Positions 16,115 to 21,882 of a DNA stretch of 64,000 nucleotides are shown here, in pieces. Source of the stretch: Halorientalis sp. (GTDB lineage: Archaea > Halobacteriota > Halobacteria > Halobacteriales > Haloarculaceae); the NCBI RefSeq assembly GCF_028275115.1, contig NZ_JAQCNH010000029.1:1-64000 (forward strand). Direction: 5' to 3'. A model generated the notes under the pieces. The model searched no databases, was not told the origin of the DNA, and was given only the letters and a program-made list of their open reading frames with translations. Positions within the stretch are counted from its first letter, which is position 1. Each line of letters begins with the position of its first letter. Both the position numbers and the translations under genes were made by a program.

Positions 16115-17362
16115 CTACATCGCACCTCCGGCGGTGTCAAACACGCTCATGTCGACATCCACGTCGAGGTCCCGCTGTTCGGTCTCCTCGATGACGGTCT
16201 GGAGGTCCTTGTCGCCTCGGCCCGAGACGTTTATTACTGTGACGTCGCCCACCGCGTCGGGGTTCTCGTGCAGATAGCCGAAGGCGTGGGCGGTTTCCAG
16301 CGCGGGGATGATCCCCTCCTCCTGTGAGAGGCGGTGGAACCCCTCCAGCGCGGCGTCGTCGTCGACGTTGACCGGCCTGACCCGGCCCGTATCGACGAGG
16401 TGGGCCAGTTCCGGCCCGACGCCGGCGTAGTCCAGCCCCGCCGAGACACTGTGTGACTCCATGATCTGCCCGTCCGAATCCTGCAGGAGCTTGGTGCGTG
16501 CACCGTGGAGAACACCCTCGTCGCCGGTCGAGAGCGTCGCCGAGTTGGGGGCAACGCCTTCTTCCTCGTCGACGGCCAGCGAGGAACCGCCGGCCTCGAC
16601 GGCTATCAGTTCCACCTCGTCGTCCTCGGCGAACTCGGCGAACGCCCCCATCGTGTTCGACCCGCCGCCGGCACACGCGACCACCGAGTCGGGGAGTCTG
16701 CCGAGTCGCTCGCGGCTCTGCTCGCGCATCTCCTCGGAGATGACGCTGTGGAAGTCACGGACCATCCGCGGGAACGGGTCCGGGCCGACGATCGACCCGA
16801 TGACGTAGTGGGTGGTTTCGACGGTCGTTGCCCAGTCGCGCATCGTCTCGCTGATAGCCTCCTTGAGCGTGCCCCGGCCCACGGTCACGGGGTTCACCTC
16901 TGCCCCGTTGAGCCGCATCCGGAACACGTTGGGCCGCTGGCGGTTGATATCGGTTCGGCCCATGTAGATCTCACAGGGCATGTCCAGGTGGGCGGCCGCC
17001 ATCGCCGTCGCGGTGCCGTGCTGGCCGGCCCCGGTTTCGGCGATGATCCGGTCTTTGCCCATATACTTGGCGAGCAGAACCTGTCCGAGCGCGTTGTTCA
17101 GTTTGTGTGCGCCTCCGTGGAGCAGATCCTCACGTTTGAGGTACACCTCGGCGTCGTACGCGCCCGAGAGTTGGTCGGCGTACTGCAACGGCGTCGGCCG
17201 GCCGCCGAAGTCTCGCAGTCGCTCGCGGAACTCGTTCATGAACCCGTCCTCGTTGTTCAGCACGTACCGTTCGTACGCGTCTGTCAACTCCTCGATGGCC
17301 GGCATCAACGCCTCTGGCACGTACTGACCGCCGTACTCTCCGAATTTTCCTGTCTCACTCAT
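16115..17362 (-). CDS. trpB: Tryptophan synthase beta chain
   Basis: [41 protein letters not shown]-lysine motif. Confidence 0.97.
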
Positions 17363-18138
17363 GTTTCGGTCTCCGTTTGCGTCAGTCGCGACGTGTTTTC
17401 CTCGACCGGTCCGTCCATGATGGCGCTACCGATCAACAGCCCATCTGCCCCAGCCGCTCGCATTCGGGACACGTCGGCAGCGGTCTCGATACCGCTCTCG
17501 GCCAACACGGTCACGTCGTCGGGTACGTCGGCTGCGACACGCTCGAACGTCCCCAGGTCGACGTCCAACTGTGCGAGGTCACGGTTGTTCACACCCACGA
17601 TATCGGCTCCGGCGTCAAGTGCCTGCTGGAGTTCCGCCGCGTCGTGAACCTCCACGAGAACCTGGAACCCGCGGTCCCGGGCCGCTCCGAGCAGGTGAGC
17701 CAGTCCGTCGGTATCCGATTCCTGCAAGAACCGGGCGATCAGAAGGATGACGTCGGCCGCCACGGTGTCGAGTTGGGCCTCGCGCACGACGAAGTCCTTC
17801 CGCAGGACCGGCACGTCGACGGCATCGCGGATTCGGCGCACGTTCTCCGGTGAGCCGCCAAAGTGGTCCGGTTCGGTCAGCACCGACAGGGCCGCCGCGC
17901 CGCCGGCAACCATCTCCTCGGCGAGCTCGACGGGGTCGTCGGTCCGTTCGCCGTCGGTCGTCGGACTCGTCGGCTTGATCTCTGCGACTACGGGTACCCG
18001 CCCGTCGGCCTCGGCTGCCGCGAACGCGTCGGGTAGCGACCGCGGGTCGACCGACAGCCGCCCGTCGCCCCCACCTCGCTCGCGAGCGGCCGCGAGTATT
18101 GCTTCCACCGCTGGTGCTATTTCTCCACTAGCGTCCAT
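17359..18138 (-). CDS. trpC: Indole-3-glycerol-phosphate synthase
   Basis: [61 protein letters not shown]. Confidence 0.95.
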
Positions 18139-18239: not shown

Positions 18240-18914
18240 ATGACGGATAGACGAGATTTTCTCGGGGGACTGACGCTCCTCGGAGCGGCCAGCGTGGCCG
18301 GTTGTCTCGGTGATGACGGCAGGAGCGGCGGGAGCGGCGGGGACGGGCGACGGACGCCGACCACGGTGGGACCGGCTGCGTCCGGGAGTCAGTCCCGAGA
18401 GCCTGACGAGGCGGGGGACGGGGGGTCACTCCCATCGGCACTCCGAGTCGTCTCGGCGGTCGGAACCGGCGTCGAGGCCCGCCGGATTGGGACGGTCGAA
18501 CTGACGGTCGGCAGGGCCGACTGGGTCGAGAGCGTCGATCTGACCGATCTCACCGCCACCTGGACCGTCCCTGGCGACAGCTATGAACTGGCCGCGGCCA
18601 CCACCGATACCGATACCGACGCCGACGGCTACTTCGGAATCGAACCGGACAGGGGAACGGCCGCGGACGCGACGCTGCAGACGGCCGACGAGCGGCACCG
18701 ACTGGTGTTCGACCTCGGAGACGACGACGTCGAGAACGACGACCGGCACCGGCGGACGGAGACCGACGTCACGCACTTCGGTGAAGTCGTGCGCGAGGAC
18801 GACGTCGTCGGTCTCAGACTCACGACGGCCGGTGGGTCAACGACGAGCGTCCGGCTGTTGGCCCCGGCCGACGTGACGGAAATCGAGGGAACCGTCGAGT
18901 TGACCATCGACTGA
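18240..18914 (+). CDS. Tat lipoprotein with archaellin-like mature domain
   Basis: [26 protein letters not shown]; mature [23 protein letters not shown]...[15 protein letters not shown]...[11 protein letters not shown]...[30 protein letters not shown] parallels archaellin globular domains. Confidence 0.7.
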
Positions 18915-19075
18915 TACTGTCGGCCGGGAGAGGCTCCAGCCGACGTGCGCCTGGAGTTATACGGGCACGGCTGGCGTCGTACCGGCGGACTGACGTCCAC
19001 TGGCACCCGTCCGGCGGTGTGTGATTTCCGGTCGCGTTACGGTACGGTCGTTTACAGGTCGGGCGCGACTCGTCT

Positions 19076-19734
19076 GTGTTTACCTGTCGGCGGCGGATGC
19101 TCCTCCGGACCGGCATCACCGCCACAGCGCTCGCGGTAGCTGGCTGCACCAGCCAGGACGACTCGGTCGACCCTGCCGCCGACAGTGACGGCGGAACCGA
19201 CGACGCCGGCGGAACCGAGATACCCGGGACCGTAGTGGTGGAGGCACCGATACGAACGATTTGGCCGAGACCACGACGGACGACGACCGGCGGCCGACCG
19301 ACCGGAGACAGGCCGCCTCGAAGGTGAGGGTCGTCGCGGACGGGCGGATCAGCGCCGTCGAACTGACGGTCGTACCCGCTCTGGGGGCCGGTCCCGTCGG
19401 CCTGGACGTCTTGATTGTCCAAAGGGTCGGCGCGAACGGAACCGACGATGTCGCTACGACGTCGGGTGGGGCGACGGTCGACGGCGGCTTTCGGCTCGCC
19501 CCGGTCACGGACTCGGACGACTCCGCATCAGTCGTGGACGTCGTCGACGACCGGATGCGGTTGTCGATGGCTCTCTGGACGACCGACGGGGTATCCCGCG
19601 TGGAGGAGTTCGGTGAATCGCTCCGGCCTGGGGTCGCGGCTGCGGTCAGAGTCGCGACTGGCAGTAGCGCGACGGCAACCGTCCGACTCAGGGTATCGCA
19701 GACGCTCGCCGGCGAGCAAGCAGTCACCCTGTAG
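19076..19734 (+). pseudogene. Second archaellin-like lipoprotein, frame disrupted in linker
   Basis: Frame 2 lipobox MLLRTGITATALAVAGCTSQDDSVDPAADSDGGTDDAGGTEIPGT; frame 1 continues RSGGGTDTNDLAETTTDDDRRP...VRVVADGRISAVELTVVPALGAGPVGLDVLIVQRVG...LRVSQTLAGEQAVTL. Confidence 0.6.
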
Positions 19735-19769: not shown

Positions 19770-20234
19770 ATGAGTAGCGATGTCGCGGGCATCTACGCAC
19801 GCGAATCGGAGTATCTCGACCGCTTCGTGCAGGTCGGGATTGCACAGGGTCGAGTCATCTCCGTCTCGTTCCCCGAAACCCCCGACGAGGGTGCCGAGGA
19901 CGAACACGAGCTCCTGGATCGGGTCGGCGCGTACCTGCAGGGGAGCGAGGAAACCTTCGAGAACGTTCAGGTTGCGCTGACCGTCCCGACCGACCAGCGA
20001 CAGGTGCTCGAGTCCGTCCGGGAGATTCCGTACGGACGGGACTCCTCGGTCGCGCAACTCACGCGGATGACGCCCGGACTGGACGACGAGAGCGACGCCG
20101 ACCTGCGGTCAGTTCAGGAGGCGCTCGCCGAGAACCCCGCACCGGTTTTCATCCCCGACCACCGCGTCCGCGACGGCCCCGGCACGACCCCGCGCGCGGT
20201 CGCCGACAAACTCCGGTCCGTCGAAGGTATCTGA
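19770..20234 (+). CDS. MGMT/Ogt-fold protein lacking the catalytic cysteine
   Basis: SVREIPYGRDSSVAQL...ALAENPAPVFIPDHRVRDGPG (PDHRV in place of PCHRV). Confidence 0.8.
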   Translation: MSSDVAGIYARESEYLDRFVQVGIAQGRVISVSFPETPDEGAEDEHELLDRVGAYLQGSEETFENVQVALTVPTDQRQVLESVREIPYGRDSSVAQLTRMTPGLDDESDADLRSVQEALAENPAPVFIPDHRVRDGPGTTPRAVADKLRSVEGI

Positions 20235-20563: not shown

Positions 20564-20628
20564 CGGAGTGTGCCCGCCCGTGCGGAGCCATCAATAGTAT
20601 CATAGGCACGTGGTGCTATCTCCCGGCC

Positions 20629-21882
20629 GTGGTTGATGAACGTGTGTCTCGACGCCGGCTGCTCGCAGCGGTAGCCGTCTCCGGCTCGGTAACGGGCTGT
20701 ACTGGCTTGCTAGAGGGGGAGTCCGGAGCGACTCCGTCGGATGGCCCACCATCCGGGACGCCGACGGCAACCGAACGGGCGCCTCCGATGGACTCACCCG
20801 ACGCGGCCACCGGCGTCACGGTCACCGAGGTGTCGACCGGTCTCTCGAACCCCTGGGGGCTCGCCTTCCTCCCCGACGAGTCCGGCCTGCTGGTGACCGA
20901 GCAGGCCGGGCAGCTCCTGCTGACGGACGTGGAGAGCGGCGACCGAACCGCGCTGTCGGGGGTCCCGACGGTTCACGCTCGCGGCCAGGGTGGGCTGCTG
21001 GACGTGACGCTACACCCCAACTTCGACTCGAACCGACTCGTCTACCTCACCTATTCCGTCGCGGGTGAGGGCGGTTCGACCACACGGGTCGGTCGCGGGC
21101 GACTGGAGCGCGACCGGAGCCGGCTCGTCGACTTCGAACCGGTCTACACCGCCCGTCCGTTCGTCGAGTCGAACGGCCACTACGGCTCACGAGTGGTCTT
21201 CGATACCGAGGGGTATCTTTACGTCAGCGTCGGCGACCGGCAGTTCAAGAACTTCGGCCCGGACCACGTCGCACAGTCGCTGGACGACGACCTCGGGTCG
21301 GTGCTGCGACTCAAGGACGACGGGTCCGTTCCCGATTCGAACCCGTTCGTCGACGACCCGGACGCCTCGGACGCAGTGTTCACCTACGGCAACCGGAACC
21401 CGCAGGGACTCGCGATACACCCCGAGACGGGCGCGGTGTGGGAGACGGAGTACGGCGAGCGCGACGGCGACGAAATAAATATTCTCGAAGGTGGTGAAAA
21501 CTACGGCTGGCCAGTCGCGGACAACTCCTGTCGGTACGGTACCGACGACCCGGTCGGCGTCTCACACGGAGAGCGTGCGGACGTGGTCGCGCCGGTCTAC
21601 GGGTGGGCCTGCGGGAGCGGCGGGTTCCCGCCGAGCGGCACCACCTTCTACGACGGGAACGCGTTCCCCGAGTGGCGTGGCGACCTGTTCGTCGCCGGTC
21701 TGGCCAAGCAGTACCTCGCCCACTTCACGGTCGACGGTCGCGAGGTGACGGAGGTGGCGCCACTGCTGGCCGACAGCGGTCAGCGTATCCGTGACGTGAC
21801 AGTGTCGCCGGCCTCGGGTCACCTCTACGCGGCGGTCGATGCCGACAGCGCGCCGATATACCGTATCGAACCCGGCGAGTGA
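20629..21882 (+). CDS. PQQ-dependent sugar dehydrogenase (glucose/sorbosone dehydrogenase), lipoprotein
   Basis: GTG start; RRRLLAAVAVSGSVTGCTG; LSNPWGLAFLPDESGLLVTEQAGQL; YGNRNPQGLAIHPETGAVWETEYGERDGDEINILEGGENYGWP. Confidence 0.9.
   Translation: MVDERVSRRRLLAAVAVSGSVTGCTGLLEGESGATPSDGPPSGTPTATERAPPMDSPDAATGVTVTEVSTGLSNPWGLAFLPDESGLLVTEQAGQLLLTDVESGDRTALSGVPTVHARGQGGLLDVTLHPNFDSNRLVYLTYSVAGEGGSTTRVGRGRLERDRSRLVDFEPVYTARPFVESNGHYGSRVVFDTEGYLYVSVGDRQFKNFGPDHVAQSLDDDLGSVLRLKDDGSVPDSNPFVDDPDASDAVFTYGNRNPQGLAIHPETGAVWETEYGERDGDEINILEGGENYGWPVADNSCRYGTDDPVGVSHGERADVVAPVYGWACGSGGFPPSGTTFYDGNAFPEWRGDLFVAGLAKQYLAHFTVDGREVTEVAPLLADSGQRIRDVTVSPASGHLYAAVDADSAPIYRIEPGE

Follow-up and report, generated by a model that had tools for sequence, protein, structure and literature searches.

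The stretch of DNA analysed here (the window; 64,000 nucleotides from a Halorientalis genome) carries two adjacent genes with predicted archaellin globular domains between trpC and a gene for an MGMT-type DNA-binding protein, one of them intact (gene 1) and the other probably decayed (gene 2). The locus comprises the following features:

17359..18138, minus strand: trpC, divergent conserved neighbour anchoring the locus (tblastn to six Halorientalis loci; named from its sequence and the adjoining trpB/trpA-like ORFs rather than by family search)
18240..18914, plus strand: gene 1, predicted Tat lipoprotein with archaellin globular domain (224 aa, ATG start)
18240..18305, plus strand: gene 1, Tat signal peptide (RRDFL) and lipobox VAGC, with C22 as predicted lipid anchor (TIGR01409)
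18306..18431, plus strand: gene 1, low-complexity G/S/D/E/T/P linker in place of the archaellin N-terminal polymerisation helix
18432..18911, plus strand: gene 1, predicted archaellin globular beta-sandwich domain (weak Pfam match, profile match to 9eq7/9v96, AlphaFold and Foldseek)
19076..19734, plus strand: gene 2, decayed second archaellin-domain lipoprotein, probable pseudogene in the genome of the window
19076..19240, plus strand: gene 2, 5' piece with RR signal, lipobox AVAGC (TALAVAGC) and acidic linker (translation; tblastn, 49 % identity to residues 3-71 of gene 2 of genome G080)
19240..19734, plus strand: gene 2, 3' piece with archaellin domain, ending LRVSQTLAGEQAVTL (51 % identity to residues 55-218 of gene 2 of G080)
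19770..20234, plus strand: MGMT-type DNA-binding protein (PF01035), conserved downstream neighbour (Pfam, synteny)

A Tat lipoprotein of the glucose/sorbosone dehydrogenase type (PF07995) is encoded at 20611-21879 of the window, near both archaellin-domain genes.

The start of the gene 1 protein, described as Tat-like with a lipobox in a preliminary description made from the sequence, scores above the cut-off of the NCBIfam Tat model TIGR01409, and R4, G21 and C22 are invariant in all 13 lipo-type sequences of the alignment, which bears out that description. C22 precedes a linker with abundant G, S, D, E, T and P, after which approximately 160 residues follow in archaellin-domain order. A class III signal peptide with PibD/ArlK site is absent from gene 1, the Tat/lipobox start standing in its place. 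Likewise, no hydrophobic window follows the signal, whereas the archaellin helix is strongly hydrophobic on the same hydropathy scan, in agreement with the earlier remark that neither class III signal nor polymerisation helix is visible. The archaellins examined plainly show both the class III motif and the hydrophobic helix. The RR motif, short hydrophobic core, lipobox cysteine and acidic linker are shared with haloarchaeal Tat lipoproteins (TatLipo class, PMC2945643). Since most haloarchaeal lipoproteins are Tat substrates (PMC2945643), Tat export and lipid anchoring may be assumed for the gene 1 protein, and its predicted membrane anchoring is considered very likely. Archaellin-domain lipoproteins (lipo-archaellins in the following) were not found reported in the open-access PMC literature searched, including among Tat lipoproteins.

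The assignment of the mature part of gene 1 to the archaellin globular domain, previously proposed from the order of its residues, is upheld by several lines of evidence. Direct search of Haloarculaceae genomes with gene 1 yielded the archaellin of its own genome (contig C38) at E 1.3e-10 and other archaellins of the family at E values of up to 3e-21. A profile built from the 13 lipo-type sequences matched the Halobacterium salinarum archaellin 9eq7 from sequence alone (E 1.1e-14) as well as 9v96; a PDB search with gene 1 as single sequence gave no match, so that profile and fold searches were needed. In comparison to haloarchaeal archaellins (ArlA/ArlB; PF01917; 9eq7), the beta-sandwich domain appears homologous over its full length, with a conserved W, an FG pair and C-terminal proline/valine features in common, while the lipo-forms differ by having Tat signal, lipobox and linker in place of class III signal and hydrophobic N-terminal helix. 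N-glycosylation sequons average 0.75 in lipo-types versus 1.76 in archaellins, but since one third of the archaellins also have none, the difference is not counted as evidence.

The AlphaFold model of gene 1 (five-sequence alignment) consists of beta-strands (mean pLDDT 65, pTM 0.63), and in the Foldseek comparison with the PDB its matches 1-23 are all archaellum proteins, with 9eq7, the filament of H. salinarum, as best match (E 4e-8). ArlF and ArlG appear lower in the Foldseek lists (E ~1e-4). The model of an intact gene 2 orthologue, also from a five-sequence alignment, reached a pLDDT of 74 and matched 9eq7 at E 2e-11. The similarity to archaellin structures that the preliminary description had suggested looking for by fold prediction is thus found, and although the models are moderate in confidence, structure and sequence agree. 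One might argue for a generic Ig-like or beta-sandwich lipoprotein resembling archaellin by chance, since gene 1 alone matches the Pfam family Arch_flagellin (PF01917) weakly (14.9 bits, E 0.033, profile positions 48-146) and stays under its gathering cut-off of 29.5 bits. However, orthologues of gene 2 score 40-43 bits with the same family in genomes G079 and G081 (G080 being borderline), and the direct E values to archaellins together with the Foldseek list effectively refute a chance resemblance, which is considered extremely improbable. The combined sequence and model evidence makes an archaellin globular domain almost certain.

Orthologues of gene 1 from the Haloarculaceae genome search match over the full length with 58-75 % identity and were found, among the matches listed, in G076, G079, G080, G081 and G083. 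Further orthologues are present in L005 and L006 (Halorientalis regularis and H. pallida). The gene order trpC - gene 1 - (gene 2) - MGMT-like is present in six genomes with gene 1, including that of the window. Genome G078 harbours two divergent lipo-archaellins at the same locus, and G082 has one adjoining the MGMT-like gene. Judged from this gene order, most of Halorientalis has retained the locus. In the lipo-archaellins of G078 and in gene 2, the archaellin motif QVTNRLQV / QVTDRL comes straight after the new linker, as would be expected for a breakpoint just past the archaellin helix.

In case of gene 2, the preliminary description of two adjacent lipoproteins holds for intact relatives, and for gene 1 here, but not for the second gene of the window. 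Lipobox and archaellin domain of gene 2 lie in different reading frames: the noted stretch with archaellin-type C-terminus is present (19240-19734), though not in frame with its lipobox. Compared to the nearest intact orthologue (G080), there are an out-of-frame insertion of approximately 11 bp near 19229 and a 15-bp deletion, and the start codon is altered (ACC in the window, ATG in G080; a GTG is located two codons upstream). The dN/dS ratio of the domain is 0.91 versus G080, compared to 0.39-0.45 among the intact orthologues, and the copy of the window has R at the position of the invariant tryptophan of the family. Frameshift, altered start, dN/dS ratio and replaced tryptophan suggest that gene 2 is a probable pseudogene in this genome. 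It is intact with lipobox and domain in G079, G080 and G081, and the same intact gene 2 is present in L005 and L006. By tblastn at the locus, it is absent from G083 and G076, which both have gene 1.

The gene 1/gene 2 locus, in its trp and DNA-repair surroundings, does not lie within the arl cluster, the genome's own archaellins being encoded on contig C38. Co-occurrence with arl genes, which had been suggested as a check, is given, since archaellins and arl genes are present in all nine Halorientalis genomes searched; for the same reason it does not discriminate within the genus. One of these genomes, G077, has no lipo-type match in the genome search. The presence of arl genes there without a lipo-type, together with the loss or decay of gene 2 in several genomes, indicates that lipo-archaellins are dispensable for archaella.

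Substrates of Tat are exported in the folded state, while archaellins take the PibD/Arl route. This difference bears on a possible role in archaellum regulation or assembly, in which the tethered domain would nucleate, cap or sequester archaellins at the membrane. The common fold and the general presence of archaellins and arl genes in Halorientalis would agree with such a role, but with the two export routes the meeting points are uncertain, the genes lie outside the arl operon, and G077 manages without them, so that an assembly accessory is rather unlikely. A surface copy of an exposed filament domain could also counter viruses or other archaellum-binding agents, as a decoy, receptor mimic or superinfection-exclusion protein, and the divergence of gene 2 and its patchy loss would fit. 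However, no viral or defence genes were seen adjoining the locus, single-protein queries of viral contigs retrieved no relatives, and pairwise dN/dS values of gene 1 orthologues (0.30-0.52) point to steady purifying rather than diversifying selection. A decoy function is accordingly regarded as very improbable.

Further proteins combining a lipobox with an archaellin domain, for which a search had been proposed, were indeed found; the census covers the matches listed from sampled genomes, and carrier counts are lower bounds. Genome G004 encodes a Tat lipoprotein of 377 aa with two archaellin domains in tandem. A lipoprotein of 539 aa in G082 (L044:6785-8401) ends in an archaellin domain to which the last part of the archaellin helix is still attached (LNTAGFLQTEAEETGEQSHEQVTNRLQV), as if the gene had been fused directly into that of an archaellin. 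DUF7537 lipoproteins (PF24381) with the same kind of domain at the C-terminus occur in two genera belonging to a different haloarchaeal family (G277 L155:931-2205 and G315 L157 ~1430-2659, the latter with one internal stop, TGA), contrasting with gene 1 and gene 2, which have just a short linker ahead of the domain. Long proteins of G072 (L127:2887-4848) and G071 (L130:2840-5329) combine a stretch rich in proline and glutamine with a single TM helix and an unnamed domain, and end in an archaellin domain.

Two other proteins deviate at the N-terminus. In G143 (L161:3522-4202), an archaellin-like domain is preceded by a hydrophobic N-terminus in which no class III motif can be recognised (RAQSGLDRLMLFVLAIIVVV), and G385 (L136:2778-3488) encodes, beside ordinary archaellins, an archaellin-like protein with degenerate N-terminal helix (GPIGPWTLAAVVVLTVAASVAVGALVNVSGVLQ). 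Matches from a plasmid search were all named archaellin or type IV pilin, or had no annotation.

Fusion to unrelated lipoprotein domains such as DUF7537 suggests a generic module. One may thus consider a general surface or adhesive function, i.e., a stable, acidic, salt-adapted display domain (adhesin, cell-cell contact or ligand binding) without link to the archaellum. The unrelated loci, the patchy presence and the varied architectures (DUF7537 fusions, large lipoprotein domain in G082, TM protein in G071/G072, tandem in G004) are consistent with this possibility, while the source being repeatedly archaellin, and not one of the many other Ig-like domains, speaks against it.

In the phylogenetic tree, most lipo-forms are placed among archaellins, and the lipo-types require 7 changes, with a range of 6-7 across bootstraps. 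The DUF7537 form clusters with an archaellin of its own family with a support of 100/100. A single clade for all lipo-types was rejected (AU test, p ~1e-72). Within Halorientalis, a single clade is marginally rejected (p 0.009), but the tree contains long branches, and the synteny speaks for common ancestry; for these reasons just two or more origins are claimed. By these sequence comparisons, lipo-archaellins have at least two origins in haloarchaea, and more are likely.

The archaellin of H. salinarum possesses an N-terminal helix of 45 residues (PMC11239922). A lipo-archaellin, having no core helix, could not be an ordinary filament subunit or pack in the filament core. Sequence, profile, predicted fold and comparative genomics together support the initial proposal of membrane-anchored, archaellin-like proteins devoid of class III signal and helix. 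These would have arisen from archaellin paralogues whose class III signal and polymerisation helix were swapped for Tat signal, lipobox and flexible acidic linker. The gene 1 protein would fold in the cytoplasm, be exported via Tat, become lipidated at C22 and stay attached to the membrane on its outer side, with the beta-sandwich presumably positioned beneath or within the S-layer. More speculatively, it may contact archaellin-fold partners (archaellin, ArlG, ArlF) or the S-layer via sandwich-sandwich interfaces, in a role analogous to the ArlF/ArlG stator or anchor.

ArlF and ArlG are described as duplicated ArlB (archaellin) of the same fold, membrane-tethered under the S-layer; binding to the S-layer is a property of ArlF, while ArlG in soluble form stacks by its sandwich domain without core helix (PMC8667602). 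By this precedent, lipo-archaellins could act likewise. The archaellin fold is common to both, but ArlF/ArlG have an N-terminal TM helix and are encoded in the arl operon, whereas lipo-archaellins have neither feature, are predicted to be lipid-anchored and are encoded elsewhere. Moreover, they are closer to archaellin than to ArlF/ArlG and are not members of the ArlF/ArlG family. Considering this analogy, one may tentatively propose that the gene 1 protein serves as envelope-tethered, stator-like accessory with contacts to archaellin-fold proteins or the S-layer. The location outside the arl cluster, the dispensability for archaella and the fusions to unrelated lipoprotein domains count against such a role, and the general adhesive or display function outlined above is regarded as about as likely.

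Archaellin is treated as a filament protein, the known side-line being the stator pair ArlF/ArlG. The stator-like proposal extends to the more doubtful notion that haloarchaea repeatedly turned archaellin into a lipid-tethered extra anchor, collar or stator of the archaellum; if true, this would repeat, with a lipid anchor, the duplication from which ArlF/ArlG are thought to stem. The archaellin globular domain appears to have been freed from filament building and lipid-anchored more than once, in one instance at a locus conserved across a genus. Lipo-archaellins would thereby offer recent, tractable cases of a filament protein becoming an envelope protein, a transition by which the archaellum stator is proposed to have originated, and may represent a new candidate group for archaellum-envelope contacts or adhesion in haloarchaea.
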